A stretch of 64,000 nt of DNA from Volvariella volvacea V23 (lineage: Eukaryota; Basidiomycota; Agaricomycetes; Agaricales; Pluteaceae). Below, piece by piece: positions 10,880-64,000 of the stretch (the stretch's first letter is position 1; each line of letters starts with the position of its first letter). The position numbers and the translations under genes were made by a program. The stretch is taken from the NCBI GenBank assembly GCA_000349905.1, contig KB722736.1, positions 1,543,139 through 1,607,138 of the forward strand, given 5' to 3'. Below the pieces are notes generated by a model. That model did not search any database, was not told where the DNA came from, and saw only the letters and a program-made list of their open reading frames with translations.

Positions 10880-12142
10880 ATGGAGGAGCAAAGCCATCTT
10901 GAAGCGCACGGTAGCTCCGCCGACGAAAAGCCACTGAATGCTCCGCCAGTGCATCCTCAAGTCGTAGATGAGACCTATTTTCATGAATACGATGGCGATT
11001 GCGTGTTCCTTGTTGGCGGAGTGTTCTTCAAGGTAAGGACTCTACATTTACACCGCGATTATTATTATACCCAGCGCTCACTATGGCTATGCAGGTTCAC
11101 CGTCATCGATTGACGCGAGATTCCTCAATATTCAAGACAATGTTTAACCTCCCTCTCCCAGTTGACGGACCAAAACAAGGAACAATGGAAAATCCAATCA
11201 TCCTACAGGATGATCCAGAGGAATTCCGTGCCTTATGTTGGATCTTATATGCGCTGTGAGTTGAGGATCATGATGCACTCAATAGCCTCTATAATAGTCT
11301 TCATTTCTCTCTTCAGCCCCCTCGAAATTTGTTCTCAATGCGACGTCAAACAAGCCAACATCACAAGACTCGTTTCACTCGCTCGAATATGCAGGAAATA
11401 TCAATTTGGGAGCATCGAGCAGTGGACGCTGGGTCTTCTCACAACCCATATCAACCCTCAATCGCCCTGCCAGTTCCTAGACGACTGCCCAGCAGGTATG
11501 CTTACCAAAATGCTCGAACTCTCTGCTCTTTCCGATCTCAAGAAGCTTGAAGAATGGATTATAGAAAAATGGCTAGAGCGTATCCGAAAGGGCCAACTTG
11601 ATATCCCCCATGCATTGACGGTCGCAGAACGTCTTAATCTGCGCAACTTTCAAGGGTCACTGTACTATGCCCAACTCCTTGCGCTATCTGGACCTGCACT
11701 GCAGACTTCATCGATCATCGATATCCGCAGCAAAGCCTCCAAACTGTTACTCACTCCAGACCAACAAAACAAGTTATACGCAGGGGCATGGTTATTATCC
11801 TTATCGTGGATCAAGATCAACGACGCTATCTGTCGTGTTAAGCCACGGGAGCTCTTCCGAACGGTTTGTGGCCGGCCCAACAAAAATGAATGCCCCGATC
11901 GTTGGGACGTCGCGTGCCGAAAGAGCCTAGCGCTGCCGTTTATCGATGAGGCTCATGGGGACCACTTGGAGGGAGTAAGACAGATGCTAAAGGCGATAGA
12001 GGAAAAGGCAGACAATATGGCCGATCTCAATCCTTTGTGCGCCAAATGCCGGCAAGAGGGGATAAAAATGGTCAAAGCAGAGCTCGAGAAATTCCAGTTG
12101 GAGATGAGTTTGGCAGAGTATTTTTTGGGCGTTTATCAGTAA
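10880..12142 (+). CDS. BTB-2: BTB/POZ domain protein
   Basis: Apparently intact, 379 residues, exons 10880-11032, 11095-11255 and 11317-12142. The BTB fold spans about residues 30-105: ETYFHEYDGDCVFLVGGVFF, KVHRHRLTRDSSIFKTMFNL, PIILQDDPEEFRALCWILYA. Intron 1 (phase 0) falls right after the LFK/FFK of the first BTB strand; intron 2 (phase 2) falls inside the Leu codon ending the BTB core. The C-terminal 270 residues are helical and family-specific, with ICRKYQFGSIEQWTLGLL, HALTVAERLNLRNFQGSLYY, a CAKC pair and a terminal EYFLG. In fungi such BTB proteins probably mediate dimerisation or scaffold interactions. I see no Kelch, MATH or zinc-finger partner domain, so the function is unknown. It begins a run of four + strand copies. 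Confidence 0.85.
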
Positions 12143-12526: not shown

Positions 12527-13740
12527 ATGGAGAACCAGGCTCACCTCACAGTCGCAGGATCCAGTGACGGGAAATCGCCTGTCATCGATGAAACCTACTA
12601 TTACGAGCATGGTGACTGCGTATTCCTTGTGGGTGGAGTGCTTTTTAAGGTGATTGGGTATCTACCAACTCAACCTTCATTCCTATTATACGTGCCCACA
12701 GAGCTCATAACTTTACAGATTCATCGCTATCAATTGATGCGGGAGCCCTCGATGTTCACAACGATGTTCGGTCTTCCTTCTCCTGATGACAGCTCAAGAC
12801 AGGGTACCTCAAACCAGAACCCAATCATCTTACAAGACGATGCAGAGGAGTTTCGTGCTTTGTGCTGGGCCTTGTATGCACTGTAGGTTCCTTCTTTCAT
12901 TTCGTCTCATACTTTGTAACAGATCAATCTCTCAGTCCTCCTGAGGTTGGGTCTCAATATGACATAAGAAAAGCCAACATTCCTAGACTTATATCGCTTG
13001 CCCAGATATCCAGAAAATATCAACTTGAAGGTATCGAGCGATGGTGTCTTGACCTCCTTACTACTCACATCAACCCTCAAACACCTCTCGAGCTTTTGGA
13101 TAACTGCACGGCCGAAGCTCTTTCCAAATTACTAGAACTCTCTATCCTTACCGATCTCAAAGGGCTGGAAGAGTCGATCAAGGGGAAATGGCTAAACCGA
13201 ATTAGAGAAGGCCAACTCGATATCTCACATGCATTGACAGTCGCAGAGCGTCTTAACCTACGCGAATTCCAAGGGTTACTGTACTATGCACAACTAGTTG
13301 CGATATCAGGGCCTTTATTGCCACCAACCGCTGGTTTCCTTGATATTCAGAGCAAAATTACCCCGTTATCGCTCTCGTCAGATCAGAAAATCAAGTTATG
13401 CATGGGCGCGTGGTCATTGACACTTATGTGGGCCAGGGCTCTCGACTCCATTTACCAGATCAAGCCAGAGTATCGACATAACGCTAATTGCCTCATGAGT
13501 TGGGCACTTATTTGTCCGAGATTACTGAACCGACCAGTTGTTGGTGGAACTGGTGGGGACTGCGCAGGAATTTTGAGGAGGATGGCAAAGGCAATAGAAA
13601 CACAAGATACCTATACAACTGAACTCGTCCAGCAGTGTTCTCCGTGCCGAACACTAGCGTTGAATACCGTGAAGGGAGAGCTGGAGAAGCTGGAGAACGG
13701 AATGAATTTGGCGGATTGCTTTTTGGGCGCGCAGAGATGA
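12527..13740 (+). CDS. BTB-3: BTB/POZ domain protein
   Basis: Apparently intact, 363 residues, exons 12527-12649, 12719-12882 and 12936-13740, with the array's standard splice phases. Key residues are ETYYYEHGDCVFLVGGVLFK, IHRYQLMREPSMFTTMFGL, NPIILQDDAEEFRALCWALY, then ISRKYQLEGIERWCLDLL and HALTVAERLNLREFQGLLYY. The C-terminus keeps a CSPC pair and DCFLG. It is closest to BTB-2, -4 and -5 (shared EHGDC start and TAERLNLR block). The ATG was chosen because it opens the same short N-terminal segment as in BTB-2 and BTB-4. Function inferred only as a BTB-mediated interaction protein. Confidence 0.85.
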
Positions 13741-14429: not shown

Positions 14430-15634
14430 ATGGAGGGTCAAACTCATCACGAAGACGACGAACATTGGCCCGCCGTCGATGAGACATACTATTATGAGCA
14501 TGGTGATTGCATGTTCCTTGTGGGCGAAGTGCTATTTAAGGTAAATATACGCCACATTATCTCTGACCATGCGTGCTCAGAGCTCATCGTAGTTCTATAG
14601 GTTCATCGTTATCAACTAATACGAGAATCTTCCACGTTCACCACGATGTTCGACCTCCCCGTTCCCACTGGCAGGTCAAAGCAAGGGTCTACTGCTGAAG
14701 ATCCGATTGTCTTACAAGACGATGTGGAGGAGTTCCGTGCTCTATGCTGGGCCTTGTATGCACTGTAAGTCTATGGTCACACATTATATCCTACTTCGTA
14801 TATAACATCCGGCATTTACTATCTAGTCCCGCCGATATCTGCTCTCAATGTGACGCCAATCTAGTGGACGTCCCTAGACTCATTTCACTTGCTCGCATAG
14901 GCAGAAAATATCAGTTTGAGAGCCTCGAGCAATGGTCGCTCAACCTCCTTACCACTCACATTACATCGCGGTCACCCTGTGTGTCCCTGGATACCTGCCC
15001 AACCGATCCCCTTATCAAAGTTCTGGAACTGGCCGTTCTTTCTGATCGCAAACAACTCGAAGAACTGACCGCCGAAAAGTTGCTTATCCGCACTCGAAAA
15101 GGCCAACTCGATATTTCACATACATTGATGGCTGCGGAACGCCTGAATCTGCGCAGCCTCCAAGGATCCTTGTACTATGCACAATTGGTCGCAATATCAG
15201 AGCCCTTGGTGCTACCATCAATCGATTCAATCGATATTCAGAGCAAGGTCGCCTCGTTGTCTCTCACACCAGATCAGAAAATCAAGTTATGCGCGGGCAT
15301 GTGGTCGCTAACGCTGTTCTGGAATAAACTCATCAACACCATCTTGTATGAACAGCCACAAGCGATCTTTTATGCCGAGCACTGGGCTTGCGGCCTCTGT
15401 TGGGCACTTGCTGGCCGAACGGCATTAACCCGACCACTCGCTACTGAGCTCAATAAGGATCACCTTGAAAGGACGAGGCAGATGGTGAACGCATTGACGG
15501 AGCAGACAGGGGCTCATCTCAAAAATGTGTGTACTGCGTGCAAAACAGAAGGCTCCAACATGGCGAAGGAAGAATTGGCAAAGGCGGAAAAAGGCAGAAA
15601 TCTAGCGGATTATTTCTTGGGTGCGCGGGGGTGA
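14430..15634 (+). CDS. BTB-4: BTB/POZ domain protein
   Basis: Apparently intact, 360 residues, exons 14430-14540, 14601-14764 and 14827-15634. Motifs: ETYYYEHGDCMFLVGEVLFK, VHRYQLIRESSTFTTMFDL, EDPIVLQDDVEEFRALCWAL, IGRKYQFESLEQWSLNLL, AERLNLRSLQGSLYYAQ, CTACKTEG and a terminal DYFLGARG. It is a close copy of BTB-5 and lies in unit 1 of segmental duplication A. In BTB-5 an additional ATG occurs nine bases upstream; here that codon is ATA, so the homologous downstream ATG is taken as the start in both. Role beyond protein-protein contact unknown. Confidence 0.85.
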
Positions 15635-38406: not shown

Positions 38407-39634
38407 ATGGACGAGCAAGCTGAGGACAAATCCGCATATAGCGAAGTGTCTCCAAGCAGGCTAGAGCCAACCCGAGATCCATGCTACTACAAGCACGACG
38501 GCGATTGCACTCTGCTTGTAGAGGGTGTCCTGTTCAGGGTAACGAGTGTTCAATGCGGCTACTATTCTTAATCGCATGGACTAACGAGTCTACGGCAGGT
38601 CCATCGCTGTCTACTGACCAGAGATTCATCGATGTTCGAAACAATGTTCGCGCTTCCTCAGCCAACGGCTGATGGTCTGCGACATGGGTCATCCGACGAA
38701 GATCCTGTTGTCTTGCAGGACAGCCTCACGCATTTTCGTGCCCTGTGCTGGGTCCTATACGCACTGTGAGTTCTTAATTGTGTTCCACGCGATATCACCT
38801 CTGAAAATCGTCTTGTACCGTATCCCCAGTCCCAACGAAATTGGCATGCAGCATTATGTCAAACGTGTGAACATACCAAGACTTATCTTACTCGCCACTA
38901 TCTGCAGAAAATATCAATTTTTTACTATCGAGGGATGGGCACTCGATCTTCTTAGCACCCATCTCACCCCTCGATCAACCAATAAATTCCTCGATAGTTG
39001 TTCTGCCGAATCCCTCTCTGATATCCTTGAATTATCTATTCTTGGAGACCTCGTGGCTTTACAAAATAACGTTAAACCTAAATGGATAGAGCGCGTTCAC
39101 AAAGGGCAACTCAGCGTTTCGGACGCACTGGCAGTCGCAGAGCGCCTGAACCTACGTAACTTCCAAGGGTCGCTATATTACACACAAATTTGCAGACTAG
39201 CCGCACAGTTCTCGGGCTCTCCGGAAAATAGTCAGTTCGATATTCACGACAAGATCTCCGAGCTGGGGCTCACAGCGGAGCGAGAAAGGAGATTGTGTCG
39301 TGGTTTCTGGTCGTTGACCTTGTTATGGTCAAAACTTGTTGATGCTACTAGCGTCATACCGACTCACAGCTACTACTCAGGCCGCCAATACGAGGCTTGC
39401 CATACGCGGTGGGAGTCCGCTTTCAGAAAAAGCTTGTCATTAACGCACTTCAGTACGGATTATCTGAAAAATATGGATCAAATGGCCAACGGAATCAATA
39501 ACGAGGCGGATTGTAAATAGGATTTTGATAGAATGTGCAAGGCGTGTCAAGAAAGTGGAATGACAAAAATGGAGGAAGGGAAAGCTAAGTTGGAGGGATG
39601 TTTGTCTGACCACTTTCTGGGTGTGGTTAATTAG
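38407..39634 (+). pseudogene. BTB-12: BTB/POZ gene with late nonsense codon
   Basis: Exons 38407-38538, 38599-38765 and 38830-39634. BTB motifs: DPCYYKHDGDCTLLVEGVLF, RVHRCLLTRDSSMFETMFAL, DPVVLQDSLTHFRALCWVLY. Helical region: ICRKYQFFTIEGWALDLLS, ALAVAERLNLRNFQGSLYYT. Codon 330 is TAG (39518-39520); the same frame then continues to a normal ending with MCKACQES and DHFLGVVN. The truncated product would lack the conserved cysteine pair and FLG tail but keep the whole BTB fold and most of the helical region, so some function cannot be excluded. Confidence 0.75.
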
Positions 39635-55970: not shown

Positions 55971-56476
55971 CTGTGTGTGTTTGGTGTGTACGACACCTGT
56001 AGTATTTTAAGTAGCCACTGGCACGTGGATACCGCATCGTAATTGGCTGAATAAATAGCATCGTTTCAGCCACTTGCGTTCATTAGTCTTCCCTTCACCC
56101 TCCCCAGGGTAAAGCCAGCGCCATCAAGTATCTGTTTCACCGACATGCCTCCCCAGTGAGGGCAGGCGATGATGTACCAGCCTTTCAATTCAAAGTTAGG
56201 TCATGATCACCGTGACTGGAGGACATCCAGGCACGTCCGCATTCCATGACAGACAGCACGCACTCTCGCAGTCATCAAATCTCCGGATTCAGTGTCAGGA
56301 TATGAGACACCCAGAACGGTCGTTCCCATTGACAATCGGTGCTTATATATTCTCCTTTGCCCATGGAACGTTCCTAGCAGCCAAGACCCCACATACGAGC
56401 CTGAGTGCTGGTCGAGATACGACAGCCCAGCTCAGCCGTTGAGCGCGCGAACATCCCGTGTCATTGTTCATCCAAA
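55971..56476. other. intergenic between the two DUF2235 genes
   Basis: Presumed promoter of copy B; TTATATATT near 56342 is a possible TATA box about 130 bases before its ATG. No gene seen. Confidence 0.4.
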
Positions 56477-58285
56477 ATGCTGCCGACACAGACGAATGGA
56501 CGACTGAGCAGTGCGAGTTCAGGGAGCTCGGCGGATGAAGGGGGACGAGGCAGGAATTCCAAGACACTTATTCTTTGTTTCGATGGCACTAATGACCAGT
56601 ATGGCCCTCAGGTGAGTATATTTGACCCGATTTTCTCTTTTGTGGGAAATTGGGGTGCTAATGAGATGCGGGTGATAGAATACCAATGTTATCAAGTTTT
56701 ATGGGTTCTTGAAGAAGAGTGATTTTACTGAACAGATGGCATATTATCAGGTAAGCGATTAATTACTTGGTCTCCCACACTTTTACTCAATATTCTTCGT
56801 AATTAGGCTGGTATTGGGACATGGTATAATCCTGGAGTAGTTTCGCCCGCGTTGACATGGTTGGCTAAATGGATGGACATTGCGTTCGCATGGTCAGAAA
56901 CACAACTCCACTTGGTGGTGACAGTTTGACTGACAGAGTTTCTTTCACTTGACTTTATAGGTACCTCGATGCGCATGTAATCGATGGGTACAGGTTCTTG
57001 ATGCAAAACTACCGAGCTGGGGATCGCATTTGCCTATTTGGTGAGAACCCCAGAAAATCAAGGCTTGGGATAGTCCTGCTCACTAATGAGATCGTGTTAG
57101 GTTTTTCTCGGGGTGCTTACACTGCCCGGTAAGCTCTCTAGGGTTGTCATTTGCAGGTTCTGGCGTCTCACGGGAGTTTTAGCGCGCTGGCGGGATTCCT
57201 GCACAAACTAGGTTTGCTGTCACGCGATAACCAGGAGCAGATCCCGTTTGCATACAAGATCTACAAAGCCGAAACGAAAGAATCCGATGAATTAGCGAGA
57301 GGGTTCAAGGAGACGTTTTGTCAAGAAGTTTCGATAGATTTTCTTGGGGTTTGGTATGTGTCATGGGTTCCTATCCTGCAGGTTCACGTAGCTGAAAAGG
57401 ACGGGTGGATAGGGACACAGTGTCCAGTGTAGGAGTGGTTCTGTCGCGAACCTTGCCGTACACCAATTCGAATAAGTCGGTGAAAGTGTTTAGACACGCT
57501 CTCTCGCTGGATGAGGTTTGTCTGATGTCGTGGATATCGCTGGACTCGTGCTCAGAGTGTGTCATTTATGCAGCGTCGAATCAGGTATCAGCCCAACCTG
57601 TACCATTCCTCGCTAAGCCAGTGGCATGAACGCATCGACTCAGAGGAGACCATTATCGAGTCTGCCCAAGTCGGGCCCGTTCCCGCCTCGAAAGAGGTTT
57701 GGTTTTCTGGATGTCACTCAGGTTCGCTAGGGATATATAACTTTCAATCGTATACAGCTGACGCTTTGAATTCGTGTAGATGTCGGCGGTGGAAATGTCG
57801 ATAATTCCACAGAGCACAGTTTAGCGAATATTTCCCTCCGATGGATGATAAAAGAGATTATTGAAGCCAAGATTCCGATCCAGTTTGACCCAGTTGAATT
57901 GGAGAGAGCAGGGCTCTCAGTGGGTGTGCAAGCCCAAGAAGGGGAAAGCGCATCGTACCCTGGACTTGCGGATGCTTTATCACCGCTTTATGATCAATTG
58001 GTGCGAAATAAAATTTGGTGGATATTAGAGGTGCTGCCTATGAACGTATTGTGGGAGGACTTCCAGAATAGGTGGCATAGCTATTGGACGTACGTGATTG
58101 AGCTGCTTATGGTGCATTAGTCCTGACGTTTCTTTTCTCGTAGCATCAATCTTGGGCGTGGTAGGAAGGTTCGCCTTGAACACCCACAATTCCATTACAC
58201 AGTCAGGCAGAGGATTGAGCACTATACACCCAGATATGCACCCAAAGCCAGATACACAGCTGGGACTGAGGAATATGTATCATAG
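56477..58285 (+). CDS. DUF2235 alpha/beta hydrolase, copy B
   Basis: Predicted 424 residues from ten exons: 56477-56611, 56679-56750, 56807-56892, 56961-57040, 57101-57128, 57183-57353, 57413-57515, 57574-57721, 57780-58089 and 58144-58285. Motifs match copy A: TLILCFDGTNDQYGPQNTNV, AGIGTWYNPGVVSPALTWLA, nucleophile Ser about 127 in GFSRGAYTAR, Asp about 192 in DFLGVWDTV, His about 273 in GCHSDVGGG, and the end YTAGTEEYVS. Both copies start MLP in a Ser-rich leader. The two genes clearly arose by tandem duplication and both look intact, so functional divergence is possible. The intracellular location and substrate are not visible from sequence. Confidence 0.88.
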
Positions 58286-58554
58286 TTAGTATAGGCACTG
58301 TACGAGTACAACAGTGAGGATGCTGAAATATTGAATAGCCACGTGGTGGATACTGCGTCGTAATTGGCGATCAACATCGTTCCCTCTCAGCCACCTGCTC
58401 CCGCTAATCCTTCCCTTCTCGTCCTCCTCCTCATCGCCATAGTTTGTACACATCTCGGCTGCAGAGCATTCCTAGCTTTGCACCGCAATCAATCACTGGA
58501 TCTAGACACCAGACTCTCAAGAAAAGCCCAGAACTCCTAAGGGACCCATCACCA

Positions 58555-60204
58555 ATGGCAACCGCAAATCCTCCCATACGCAAGAAACGAAACTTCAAAG
58601 CCCTCCAACTCAATGTCGTAGAACCGCCCCCACCGCCTCCAGAGCCTGAAATCAAGCCGATTCCCATTCGCCAGGCACCCACAGCGGGAGGGGGCGGTGC
58701 ACCTGGTGGTAAACGGCGTCCACCGCCAATGACGCTAAAAGCGCCCAAGATTGGGACAAGTGGAAGCACAGTGACGCAGGTGGATCCAGATGCTGTAGAT
58801 AAATCTGGTTCAACGCCTCTGTCGTCGTCGTCGATGAACTCGAAGAGGAACACAGTTCATACCGCGTTGTCCAATACTTTGGCCAGTCTTGAGGTCAAGA
58901 CGGAGGTCAAGTTTGATTTGAGAACGGAGGATCTGAAGGATTTGCAGGAGTTGGGGCAGGGAAATGGTGGAAGCGTGAAGAAGGTTGAGCATGTGCCTAC
59001 GGGAACTATTATGGCCAAGAAGGTGTGTCGGATGTCCTTTCGGCGTCCTCTTGCATGGGTTGTCCTACACCGCGCTAACCTTTTATCTTATAGATTGTAC
59101 TCATCGATGCAAAACCCTCCGTTCGAAAACAGATCGTTCGAGAGCTTCAAATCATGCATGACTGCAGTTCAAAGTACATCATATCGTTCTATGGGGCCTT
59201 CATTGCGGAACCGAACATCTGTATTTGCATGGAGTTTATGGATAAAGGGTCCTTGGATGGGATCTACAAGAAGATTGGCGCGATTGATATTGAGATTGTT
59301 GGACGAGTAGCTCTGGCCGTTTTGGAAGGGTTGACGTATCTCTATGATGTGCATCGAATTATTCATCGAGGTGTGTTGTTAGTTTAGATTCTTTTGCTCT
59401 AGTGATTTGGCTGCTCACAAAGTCGCGCCTTGGCCTATAGATATCAAGCCTTCCAATATTCTATGCAACTCGCGAGGAGACATCAAAATTTGCGACTTTG
59501 GTGTGTCAGGAGAATTGATCAATTCTATTGCCGACACGTTCGTCGGTACATCAACATACATGAGCGTAAGCTCTCCCTTTCCGCTGCCTCTCCTCCACGA
59601 CCAACGGACGCATTACGTTTACAGCCCGAGCGAATTCAAGGCGCTCAATATACAGTCAAATCCGATGTCTGGTCACTCGGAATCTCCTTGATCGAGCTCG
59701 CATTGGGCAGGTTCCCATTCGCAGAATCCGACGAGGGCGATTCCGATCTCTCAGATTTGGAGGACCTCGAAGGGACGCTATCGCCTGCCCGCCCCGGCTC
59801 GCTCAGCCTAAGCGGTCTCTCAAGCGCGAGCGGGCTACCTCCAGCACGACCCAAACCGGCGAACAAGTCGAAGAAGGATAAGAGGAAGAGTAAAGGCGTT
59901 AGCTTGCAGGGTGGAGGGATGACGATGAGTATTCTGGAGCTGCTACAGCATATTGTCAATGAACCCGCGCCGAGGCTTACGCCGGAGGGAAGGTTCCCGA
60001 AGGAGGCTGAAGATTTCGTGGATAGTTGTTTGTTGAAGGATCCTAATGCTCGACCGACGCCGAAGGATTTGCTGGTAAGCCCATAGCAGCCTTTTCAGGC
60101 TCTAGGTCGCTAACGAAGTTCCTTTCGATGTGTAGTTGCACCCCTGGGTTCAACAAGCCCGAACGTCAAATGTCGATGTTGAAGCGTGGGCAAGCACGTT
60201 CTAG
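58555..60204 (+). CDS. ste7: MAP kinase kinase, Ste7/Fuz7 type
   Basis: Predicted 462 residues from five exons: 58555-59022, 59094-59370, 59441-59565, 59625-60074 and 60136-60204. The N-terminus ([20 protein letters not shown]) resembles the docking region of pheromone-pathway MAPKKs. Kinase motifs: Gly loop GQGNGG (134-139), Lys156, RELQIMHDC (helix C), HRDIKPSN (Asp249), DFG (267-269), activation loop [19 protein letters not shown] with phosphorylation sites Ser277 and Thr281, then [20 protein letters not shown]. An acidic, basic and Ser-rich insert (about residues 320-380) precedes [13 protein letters not shown]. Ste7/Fuz7 kinases relay mating and morphogenesis signals from a MAPKKK to a Fus3/Kss1-type MAPK. 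The activation loop distinguishes it from Mkk1- and Pbs2-type kinases. Confidence 0.93.
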
Positions 60205-60554
60205 ATTGCGCTGCCACCCAGTCTCATTACTGTTTCCCTACTCCCGGAGAGTTGAATTCAAGTTAGCGCCCAGCCCCCGCTTGTGTTGTCTTACCCATCT
60301 GGTGTCTACTACAGCGCGTTCAGACTAATTCTGTGTGTATTCAGGAAGTTTAGTTGTTGCTTTTGAGCGTTGAATGCTGTATTCGTGGAAGAAATACCCG
60401 AGATAGGTCTGTTCTTGTCACTAGTAGTATAGTGTGTACAACCTAGTGGTATATCGCACCAAGTATATCGCACAAATGTATAATAGTCAAACAGTTCGTC
60501 CGCTTAAGATCGTCCTCATATGGAGCAGTTGACTGCCTGAATAAGACGTTTGAT
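60205..60554. other. convergent 3' flanks
   Basis: Spacer between the MAPKK stop and the stop of the minus-strand oxygenase. Nothing else is seen. Confidence 0.4.
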
Positions 60555-61410
60555 TTATACTTGCTCAAACATCAAATCGCTCCTCATCGTATACTTCAAA
60601 CCCTTCGTGACCTCTTCACCACTGTGAACCAACATTCTTTGTTGGAAGATGAGCACCCGGCCGAGCTTGGGAAATACATCGAGGTGGTGCTTCTTATCCG
60701 GTGTCCAGAATCGGGTGGCCCCGCCCTCTCCATCTTCGTTTAGGTAGAGATGGATGGTTACAAAGGACTTTTGCGGTGGGGCTGGCGAAGTGGGGGTACC
60801 TCCAGCGTCAGAGGAGGAAGGCAATTCGACGAGACCATCGCAATGCGGTTTGAAATAGTGTCCTGGGCCGTACTTTAAGAAGCTCAGCCGTGGATTGACG
60901 CTAGGCAGGTGATCGTCAGCGTTCGCGGTCCTTTTGGGTTGCTGCACATTCTACTCACCCAACCAATCTCCACGTCGGCCCCTGTTTCTTTCCGATCTTG
61001 CCTACGATCCCTGCCCATCTACTCCCTACAGAGTCGATCTCGTGTATTTCTTCTACGTGGGGTCTTATCTTCTCGTATATCCTTTGCGAGACTGCGTTGT
61101 CGATCTTGAGGATACGGTCGCTGTTCCGGAAGTTTGAGTGGACGGTTTGAGAGCCGTCCGCGGCGTTCATGCTTAGCCCGGCGGGTTGCCAGCCTCCTGC
61201 ATCCTGTGGCGGCAAATCTGATGAAGAGTTTGTTTGTCCATCCGAGGTAGCAGGCGACGATGAATTGGCATTAGTGGCGAACGCGATTAGGTCTAGGCAG
61301 TCTTGCTCTGAAAAGAGGTTGTCAAGGACTTTGGCGTAAAAGGTGCTGTATGACTTGGATAGTGGCGTTTGCGAAAAGTCGATCCATTCTACCTGGGTTT
61401 CTGATGCCAT
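60555..61410 (-). CDS. 2-oxoglutarate/Fe(II) oxygenase, prolyl-4-hydroxylase type
   Basis: Predicted 265 residues from two exons, 61410-60959 and 60900-60555. The catalytic half (double-stranded beta-helix) shows LSFLKYGPGHYFKPHCDG, with His170 and Asp172 as two iron ligands, FVTIHLYLNEDGEGGATRFW, and LVHSGEEVTKGLKYTMRSD, with His243 as third ligand and Lys253 as likely 2-oxoglutarate anchor. The N-terminal half (FYAKVLDNLFSEQDCLDLIA, NSDRILKIDNAVSQRIYEKI) is typical of P4Hc-like fungal oxygenases. It probably hydroxylates a protein or small molecule in the cytosol or nucleus; no signal peptide is visible. The frame is also open upstream of 61410, but that stretch has no ATG, so MASETQVEW is taken as the start. 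Confidence 0.85.
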
Positions 61411-62448
61411 GTCTTTCCCTTGGAAGCTTCGACGATGGGATACGGTATTGCGGGTGGGAGTAATGCTGTGTGGGCGACCGCTTATCTGGAGGCCGAGCGC
61501 TAGTGACGAGCGGGATGGCAATGGTCGTTATTAAAGACTATTCTTGCTGGAAAGCAGGAGAGTAGGTTGGTGAAGACAAAGTGAGTCGACCAAGGCATTT
61601 TATTTAAACCTCCTGCCGACGTATCGAGTCACCATGTCGCCTCGTGTGATGATCAACAGAGAACCTAGCGGCCGACGGCAGTTCTAGAGAAAGGATCAGT
61701 TTGATTCTAGAAAGGCCCCTGATGCGGTATCGCACCTGAAGTATAGAAGTCGATTGGCGCTAGCAAGGCGACGATGGGTGAACACAAAGCTCGCGGTGAC
61801 CAGGACGGGTATCAGGGACATATGCGGCACAGCCACGATCTCGCTTACCACCAACTCTAAACCCCACCGGACCAGCGCCCAAGCAAGCTTAATGTCAATT
61901 TTCAAGGGGCCCCGTTTCAATGAAGGCCTTCATTGAACTTCCACCCCCGCGCGATGCTGTCGTATCATTCACTCAAGAACCCCCGGAAACAACGGGAGAG
62001 CGAGCTAGAACGTGGGGTGTTGTCATGTTCGTAACTCCGAGTTGAACAGCAGGAAGGGTTGGGAGAGCGAGGCTTGAGCACCACTTGTGACTCGCCTCGT
62101 GGAGGGATGCAAGGCAACCATCAAAGCAAGTTGTCAATCCAAGTAATAGTTGGTAATCCCCCGGGTCCTAAGGAGGCGTTTGACTTGCTCATCGAGGTAT
62201 GTGGCCAGTGCAGCATGGTCCGATGTCGCGTTAATGCTGTACCCAGAACAGACCAGCCCCAGCAGGAGGATATCACAATTGGGTCGATGGGGCATACGTC
62301 ATTGGGGAAATGGGCGGTCGAGATAGCTCGTATGTTCTATGCATAATACACGAGCCACGCGGCGAATGGCCCTACTCCAGTCCGGTAACAACGCGACATA
62401 CATAGCCCCCGAATCGGTTTCCTCCACTATCGGTTTGTGGAGGTACAA
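61411..62448. other. intergenic, oxygenase to pseudokinase
   Basis: Divergent promoters of two genes. Frames at 61696-61920 (-) and 62059-62346 (+) show no family signature. Nothing else is supported. Confidence 0.4.
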
Positions 62449-63949
62449 ATGCAGAGAGATAGAAGACCCATACGACTCAACCCTAGCTCAACTGCCAGCG
62501 ACACGATGACAGACCGGCACTTGCACAGTGATGACGAAGATACCCTTGTGGACCATGACTCTTCGACGATTAGAACCACGGCAGGGCCTCCAGGATCACC
62601 GTCTAGGAGGGCTCGTTCGCGTAATTCAGTGATTCAAGCACCGTTACCATCGCCGTCCACCGCTTGTACGAGGACCAGCATTGCGAGAGTCAAAGATGAA
62701 TTCGACGTTTTAGACAAGATGAGTGGCACCCCCTTTGTAACGGTGAAGCAAGTGTGGCATAGAGCGACCTCCAAGGTGCTGGTTATCAAGGTCGGTTCGT
62801 CGTCATTCTATGCCGCAAATTTAGATATAACGAATGCAATTTCAGAGCATTGTTATCCACGATCGTGGTTCACGTTGGCCCCGGTCGCTTATTAGGGAAT
62901 TTGACGTCCTCCACCACTGCAACTCGAGGTATATCATCCCGTTTCTGGGCGCTTTTTACCAGGACTCGGAGGTCCACTTGTGTATGGAATTCATGGATGT
63001 CGGATCTTTGGAGCAAATTTATTTGACGCACGGTGCAATTGAAATCAACATTGTGGGTTCAGTGGCCATGTCAGTTTTAGAGGCACTGTCGTACATGTAC
63101 AGGACGCACGGTATAGTTCACAAAGGTATGACGCAACTTGCCTTCTCCGATGCGCTTCGGTCGACTCAACTCCGGCTAACAGATATCCGACCATCGAATA
63201 TATTCTGCAATTCTCTTGGAGAGATCAAGGTACACGCATTCGCCTTATCTCAAGAACATATACAAACAATTATGGACAACACCGTGCCAACGTCCACTTA
63301 TAATAGCGTCAGTACTTATTACCAAGTCTACCCGATCATTTTGACTGACAGATGCCCTTTTTAAGCCAGAGCAAATACAGGGAGCACATCCGACCATTAA
63401 ATCGGACGTTTGGTCCGTCGGGATATCGCTGGTCGAACTCGCGATTGGGCGCTTCCCGTACTCAGAACCCATACAATCCGAAGATCTGGTTCACCAACAA
63501 CCCAGCCCAGATTCAAGTCACGAAGAAATCCTCGATTACTATCTTATTTCTCCATCAGACATCGAACCAGACGACCTCTCAGCTCCGGGCGAGTTCCCAG
63601 AAGATCCAAGTGGTCAGCCCTTGCGGCCTGTGACACCAAGGGGCGTGATGAAAATGAGCATCCTGGAGCTCGTGCAGCATATAGTGAACGAACCACCACC
63701 CAAGCTACAATCCGATGGAGAAATAACTTTCCCGGATGAAGCTAAAGAGTTTGTAGACTGGTGCCTAATGAAAGACCCCGACTTGAGAAAATCCCCTGAC
63801 GAGCTGTTGGTACGTGGCCGTATCCCAACGTCTTATCGTCCTTGTTGATGGCGTTGCTTTTTTGGTTTCACTCCCAGATGCACGACTGGATAAGAAATAT
63901 TAAGAAGATAAATGTGGATGTCCAAGCATGGGTACAATCCCTCAGATAA
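62449..63949 (+). CDS. predicted MAPKK-like pseudokinase
   Basis: Predicted 420 residues, five exons: 62449-62790, 62846-63125, 63183-63307, 63366-63809 and 63878-63949. Intron positions and phases match the MAPKK at 58555, and exon 3 has the same 125-base length. The kinase fold is readable: YIIPFLGAFYQDSEVHLCME, FMDVGSLEQIYLTHGAIEIN, PEQIQGAHPTIKSDVWSVGI, SILELVQHIVNEPPPKLQ, MHDWIRNIKKINVDVQAW. Key residues are changed. The Gly loop is MSGTPFV (all three glycines lost), HRDIKPSN is HKDIRPSN (Asp208 kept), and DFG is AFA (226-228). The beta-3 Lys (Lys114, VLVIK) seems kept, with one inserted residue after it. No stop or frameshift is present, so it is maintained as a protein. A regulatory or scaffold role in the MAPK pathway is inferred. 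Confidence 0.85.
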
Positions 63950-64000
63950 TTATCGTAGTATCTTGCATTGCACAAAAGCCCCGTTGTCCGAGTTTCGGGT

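Follow-up and report, generated by a model that had tools for sequence, protein, structure and literature searches.

A candidate Ste7/Fuz7-family pseudokinase encoded near an active family member in Volvariella volvacea

Pseudokinases that steer mitogen-activated protein kinase (MAPK) signalling are known at the tier of the MAPK kinase kinases (MAPKKKs), with KSR as the example, and VRK3 reportedly combines a degraded catalytic site with a conserved fold. Passages of PMC9068654 describe HKD in place of HRD in KSR1, and a face-to-face arrangement of MEK1 with B-Raf and KSR1 around helix alpha-G, a contact that is broken by the MEK1 change F311S; the alpha-G contact of MEK1 also appears in an extract of PMC11257983. 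For a pseudokinase of the VRK3 type, scaffolding is described as kept after loss of the ATP pocket (PMC12721161, in excerpt). One tier below KSR, we found no report of a MAPK kinase (MAPKK)-tier pseudokinase in fungi in searches of open-access PubMed Central, judged from the papers listed and from passages of PMC3591445, PMC3894213, PMC3218828 and PMC12837073. This agrees with an earlier reading of the DNA described here, made from its letters alone (the sequence-only reading), which knew of no described pseudo-MAPKK partner of Ste7/Fuz7. Here, we analyse such a candidate, the gene PK, in a stretch of 64,000 nucleotides of Volvariella volvacea V23 (contig KB722736.1, positions 1,543,139 to 1,607,138 of the forward strand; hereafter the window), taken from an assembly of 35.4 Mb in 54 contigs. 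Judged by its sequence, PK is an intact pseudokinase of the Ste7/Fuz7 family, and it is most likely a protein-coding pseudo-MAPKK that arose by an old duplication in the lineage of its active neighbour, STE7A.

An intact gene with broken catalytic motifs

All four intron positions of PK are shared with STE7A, which ends 2,244 bp upstream, so the common exon structure that the sequence-only reading had proposed for PK and a MAPKK 2.2 kb away is borne out. The same 420-residue model is present in the nr database from V. volvacea WC 439 (AX16_004563), with two differences (I62V and I209V), and was the best match to the PK of the window in a protein database search; the STE7A proteins of the two strains are identical. 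In the window, the reading frame and splice sites of PK are intact, as had been claimed from the letters, and WC 439 has the same model; neither copy shows the disruption expected of a pseudogene. Intron 3 has an AAG acceptor 14 bases past a CAG; use of the CAG would break the frame. Pfam recognised a kinase domain only.

We aligned PK with MAFFT to 182 relatives, namely STE7B, another Ste7 paralogue of this genome, and 181 listed database proteins, one of which is STE7A; the WC 439 copy of PK was excluded. HRD, DFG, the catalytic-loop Lys, the loop Asn, and the alpha-C Glu were each found in 182 of the 182 relatives. PK keeps the loop Asn and the alpha-C Glu and has HKD for HRD, Arg for the catalytic-loop Lys, and AFA for DFG, which confirms the substitutions first read from the sequence. 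The three glycines of GxGxxG, present in 180 of the 182 relatives (the other two are gapped), are Ser, Thr, and Val in PK. Thus, the earlier statement that all glycines of the ATP loop had been lost is correct for the consensus positions, but one Gly persists at a shifted place (SGTPFVTV). In the MAFFT alignment alone, a Ser of PK stands opposite the beta3 Lys of STE7A. However, since intron 1 directly follows that Lys in STE7A and directly follows a Lys in PK, the beta3 Lys is most likely retained, and the extra Ser would come from an acceptor displaced by 3 nt. The loss of catalytic residues is therefore real for the motifs but incomplete, as the beta3 Lys, the alpha-C Glu, the HRD Asp, and the loop Asn remain; PK also has the APE Glu, alpha-F Asp, and alpha-I Arg. 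In the activation loop, the pair of acceptor residues is S/T in 180 and S/S in 2 of the 182 relatives, and reads T and N in PK, which thus lacks the S/T-xxx-S/T pair expected of a MAPKK.

Because its catalytic motifs are broken, PK was not classed as a working MAPKK, whereas its closest sequence relatives among the matches listed are Ste7/MEK proteins. If a pseudokinase is taken as a kinase homologue that has lost at least one of the beta3 Lys, the HRD Asp, and the DFG Asp, PK belongs there through the DFG Asp. Bulky residues also occupy two of its ATP-site positions (G138F and L256F, STE7A numbering). We do not claim that they fill the catalytic spine as a substitute for ATP, because the beta3 spine position of PK is Val, and in KSR1 a change of the corresponding Ala to Phe blocked ATP but a change to Val did not (PMC12721161, in excerpt).

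Selection, retained surfaces, and origin

Over 277 aligned core codons, PK and STE7A differ at 39, 25, and 64% of first, second, and third positions, respectively (0.394/0.245/0.643, with the STE7A branch included), and not to the equal extent that a pseudogene would show. The nonsynonymous distance (dN) was 0.40–0.42, whereas the synonymous distance (dS) was not computable by the Nei-Gojobori method and reached a saturated 12.8 by maximum likelihood. At fourfold sites with a conserved amino acid, third bases agree at 8 of 54 between PK and STE7A, compared with 26 of 81 between STE7A and STE7B. As synonymous sites are saturated, the frame of PK has been maintained over a very long time, and the sequence bears a strong signature of purifying selection.

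Sites that hardly change in a working kinase were used to probe the time after catalysis was lost. Of 130 nearly invariant core sites (at least 98% conserved in the 182 relatives), PK keeps 78 (60%) and has changed 52. Neutral decay of the STE7A core to 60% produced a mean of 5.8 stops, and 0.5% of 1000 runs were stop-free, whereas PK has no stop; in an earlier set of 300 neutral runs to 51% identity, the mean was 7.0 stops and a single run was stop-free. These simulations took STE7A as the ancestor with a transition bias of 2, treated all sites as neutral, and ignored frameshifts and splice sites. The selection that the sequence-only reading had suggested is thus supported by saturated synonymous and restrained amino-acid divergence, and by the absence of the roughly six stops expected under neutral decay. 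Synonymous saturation, absent stops, and the graded retention of residues together argue against a fresh pseudogene.

Retention of the nearly invariant sites was uneven across regions (chi-square p 2.5e-5). PK keeps 5 of 22 in beta1-beta3, 9 of 17 from alpha-C to beta5, 12 of 19 from alpha-D to alpha-E, 15 of 30 in the catalytic and activation loops, 19 of 23 from P+1 to alpha-F, and 18 of 19 from alpha-G to the C-terminus, the first and the last region differing with a Fisher p of 3.6e-6. A second count used sites strictly invariant in 79 active rows and covered 80 of the 182 listed proteins, with the WC 439 copy standing for PK, so that V209 enters as one loss that the PK of the window does not have. 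Here, 60 of 92 sites are kept, including 14 of 14 in the alpha-G/C-terminal region and 2 of 11 in beta1-beta3; treating the beta3 Lys as retained raises the latter to 3 of 11, at which the Fisher p is 1.5e-4. By comparison, five divergent active control proteins lose 0 to 6 of 92–98 strictly invariant sites. The alpha-G motif MSILEL of PK is that of STE7A and of 162 of the 182 relatives. In our alignment, both STE7A and PK (Leu349) have Leu where MEK1 has F311. Near the N-terminus, RDRRPIRL matches the MAPK-docking (D-site) pattern. Shuffling residues 2–80 of PK gave this pattern within the first 20 residues in 2.0–2.7% of cases; within the first 45 residues, it is present in STE7A and in 127 of the 128 listed proteins that have the usual N-terminal basic-NF motif.

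STE7B (our name) lies on contig C30 (L010:2434-4306), encodes 538 residues with all catalytic motifs, and by inspection has the intron positions of STE7A and PK. The genome therefore holds a second active Ste7 paralogue and not only the one considered in the sequence-only reading. In a FastTree phylogeny of 183 rows, STE7B clusters, with support 100, in a group of 25 listed proteins, including proteins from Pluteus, Amanita, Hypsizygus, Mycena, and Marasmius, and 12 chosen members of this group stay together with support 100/100 in a mixture-model tree of 45 rows. These genera belong to the Agaricales, an order that thus seems to have two ancient Ste7 lineages.

The trees cannot place PK with support. 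FastTree paired it with another long branch (P0114), and the mixture-model tree, in which the PK branch has a length of 8.1 against a median of 0.22, put it next to V. volvacea STE7A (support 4/0) and grouped it with 22 STE7A rows (support 16/78); a position with STE7B was not rejected (p-AU 0.475). For this reason, we relied on residue signatures. We compared 24 sites that are diagnostic between the A and B lines, the A group being the 56 rows of a FastTree clade supported at 57. PK agrees with the A line at 12 of these sites, never agrees with the B line, and differs from both at the other 12; STE7B of this genome has the B state at 17 and the A state at 6. The A states of PK may, however, simply be ancestral. 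At the 17 sites where V. volvacea STE7A has a private state, PK shares that state at 0, has the common STE7A state at 5, and has another residue or a gap at 12. Given this result and the saturated synonymous distance, the duplication looks old, and most simply it would have occurred in the STE7A line before V. volvacea STE7A gained its private changes. Calling STE7A the active parent, as was done from the letters, is therefore too simple. No trace of a recent duplication was seen, as positions 56000-64000 contain no ungapped repeats of at least 25 bases. Repeat-induced point mutation (RIP)-like change was rejected as the cause of divergence, as the CpG/TpG ratios of PK (0.94/1.11) are close to those of the window (0.89/1.11).

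The features of the locus are given in Table 1. Upstream of STE7A, an open frame at 57142-57432 matches the catalytic domain of Tle1-like phospholipases (PF09994) and is part of the gene located there; the adjoining open frame at 56405-56722 has no Pfam match. Downstream of PK, about 2 kb without a clear gene precede the next large open frame (L009:3990-6215, past the end of the window), which has a YTH1-like RRM domain. Elsewhere in the window, four plus-strand open frames (11114-12142, 12790-13740, 14699-15634, and 38618-39520) share the pattern RKYQ ... LLTTHI/LLSTHL ... AERLNLR and resemble a local gene family, with no Pfam match at E 0.01.

Table 1. Positions of PK, its motifs, and neighbouring genes in the window
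Feature	Position	Strand	Description	Basis
PK gene	62449-63949	+	five exons, 420 aa, no internal stop	
PK exon 1	62449-62790	+	N-terminal tail, degenerate Gly loop, to beta3 Lys	
PK exon 2	62846-63125	+	alpha-C to HKD of the catalytic loop	
PK exon 3	63183-63307	+	catalytic loop, AFA, activation loop	
PK exon 4	63366-63809	+	PE of APE motif, alpha-F, kinase insert, alpha-G, alpha-H, alpha-I	
PK exon 5	63878-63949	+	C-terminal tail and stop codon; presumably the place of the MAPKK DVD docking site	
PK intron 1	62791-62845	+	donor GTCGGT	
PK intron 3	63308-63365	+	donor GTCAGT	
RDRRPIRL	62455-62478	+	D-site pattern match near PK N-terminus	pattern
SGTPFVTV	62722-62745	+	degenerate Gly loop (STE7A: GQGNGGSV)	alignment
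beta3 Lys codon	62788-62790	+	directly 5' of intron 1, as in STE7A	intron-anchored alignment
HKDIRPSN	63119-63199	+	catalytic loop (STE7A: HRDIKPSN), interrupted by intron 2	alignment
AFA	63236-63244	+	replaces DFG	alignment
alpha-G stretch MSILELVQHIVNEPPPKL	63654-63707	+	in the best-kept region	alignment, retention counts
STE7A	58555-60204	+	Ste7/Fuz7-type MAPKK, 462 aa, all catalytic motifs	alignment
STE7A exons	58555-59022, 59094-59370, 59441-59565, 59625-60074, 60136-60204	+		
2OG-Fe(II) oxygenase-domain gene	60555-61410	-	bystander between STE7A and PK	Pfam; start codon by inspection

A possible docking role and its alternatives

The combination of a ruined N-lobe and a well-kept alpha-G region suggests a non-catalytic docking partner or decoy in the Ste11-Ste7-MAPK module, a reading to which we give an even chance. 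PK would fold as a MEK-like kinase domain unable to transfer phosphate normally. Its alpha-G face and C-terminal part would still be offered to a MAPKKK, presumably Ste11, and its N-terminal D-site-like motif would take a MAPK, so that PK would hold both without relaying the signal. As a decoy, it could compete with STE7A for Ste11 and the MAPK and damp the pathway; as an allosteric scaffold, it could keep Ste11 in position. We lean slightly towards the decoy form, since PK still has the alpha-G face but no longer the second acceptor of the activation loop (T to N). We infer from the family alone that the pathway would be the pheromone pathway.

Several observations weigh against this proposal. 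The conserved clade of AFA-bearing orthologues by which the sequence-only reading proposed to support function was not found: outside V. volvacea, there was none among the 120 listed of 360 matches. When residues 76-160 of PK served as query, only PK itself was recovered out of six candidates, in a search that requires shared 5-residue words, so that a fast-evolving orthologue could escape it. Another protein search listed 120 of 4551 matches. From Pluteus cervinus, the matches listed include STE7A (P0055) and a partial STE7B (P0123) but no PK orthologue. The absence of orthologues in related species, which the earlier reading had named as counting against it, is thus formally what the database returns, with no other Volvariella species among those 120 listed matches. 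So far, then, PK appears to be lineage-specific, known from V. volvacea only, which leaves no clade for measuring the selection that has acted since catalysis was lost. Part of the constraint on PK may also predate that loss. If decay started late, the intact frame is less telling, since neutral runs to 80 and 90% identity were stop-free in 4.7 and 20.2% of 1000 cases, respectively. The donors of introns 1 and 3, unusual with respect to the consensus, may point to weak splicing. Regarding the docking surfaces, retention in the C-lobe may reflect the needs of folding as much as docking, and the predicted model of PK leans on alignment to active relatives and so cannot prove that the protein folds. 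In the last 17 aligned residues, PK is 35% identical to STE7A, with the invariant residues kept and the others not. The D-site match is weak, as shuffles gave the pattern within the first 80 residues in 11–16% of cases.

Of the alternatives, the one that survives best, although we regard it as unlikely, is that PK is functional outside the Ste11-Ste7-MAPK module, as a neofunctionalised partner of another kinase or process. Its long branch, the loss of 40% of the nearly invariant sites, and a kinase insert without the basic stretch of STE7A would agree with this, but 18 of the 19 nearly invariant residues between alpha-G and the C-terminus match the MAPKK family, and the N-terminus has a D-site-like motif. 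Taken jointly, the docking and neofunction readings make some non-catalytic function of PK likely.

Slightly less probable is a dead gene in slow decay, which would long have encoded a working kinase, lost its function lately, and escaped stops and frameshifts by luck. Such a history would be consistent with the failure of both the listed matches and the residue 76-160 search to yield an orthologue elsewhere, with the very long branch, with the weak-looking donors, and with the one neutral run in five that remained stop-free if just 10% of residues had decayed. It is difficult to reconcile with the 52 changed sites out of 130, which require a long relaxed time that simulated genes rarely passed without a stop, with the uneven spread of the changes, and with the same frame in WC 439.

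CASK has reportedly been found to catalyse in a metal-independent manner. That PK likewise still binds nucleotide or catalyses in an unorthodox way is the least probable alternative, as the consensus Gly-loop glycines and the DFG Asp are all gone and bulky residues sit at G138F and L256F, even though the intron-anchored beta3 Lys, the alpha-C Glu, the HRD Asp, and the loop Asn are kept and Val at the beta3 spine is the residue that left ATP unblocked in KSR1 (PMC12721161, in excerpt).

Returning to the docking or decoy role, a protein that dampens or rewires pheromone-MAPK signalling would suit the biology of V. volvacea. According to sections of PMC4938666, compatible strains have almost identical pheromone receptors and MAT-B no longer sets mating type; fruiting without mating, an unexplained trait of this cultivated mushroom, is possible (PMC4938666 and PMC3602538, both in excerpt). 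Nothing here, however, links PK to the trait. A more specific and doubtful extension is that PK is a dedicated pseudo-MAPKK, a KSR-like regulator one tier lower, which could use its alpha-G face, tail, and D-site to occupy Ste11 and the MAPK and so rewire pheromone-MAPK signalling toward fruiting without mating. If PK acts as a docking partner or decoy, a cultivated mushroom would provide a MAPKK in which docking has been naturally uncoupled from catalysis.

Comparison with known systems

Compared with the Ste7/Fuz7-type (MEK1-like) MAPKKs, PK belongs to the same family, with the same predicted fold, the four intron positions, and an MSILEL motif identical to that of STE7A, but it has lost the Gly loop, the HRD Arg, the catalytic Lys, DFG, and one activation-loop acceptor. 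STE7B and PK are paralogues in one genome with the same intron positions; STE7B has all catalytic motifs, whereas PK has the STE7B state at none of the 24 diagnostic sites. VRK3 and PK have a degraded catalytic site in common, but VRK3 is from another kinase family and is a reported regulator of Erk signalling, not a paralogue of a cascade kinase. KSR1/KSR2 of the RAF-MEK-ERK cascade, like PK if its family is a guide, are pseudokinases linked to a MAPK cascade, and KSR1 and PK both have HKD in place of HRD. KSR, however, is RAF-like, acts at the MAPKKK tier, binds MEK, and has Arg for its beta3 Lys, whereas PK would stand at the MAPKK tier, with only a kinase domain by Pfam, and the first 40 of the 60 PDB sequences listed for it, out of 1982 matched, are MEK1, MEK2, or Dsor1, not RAF-like kinases.
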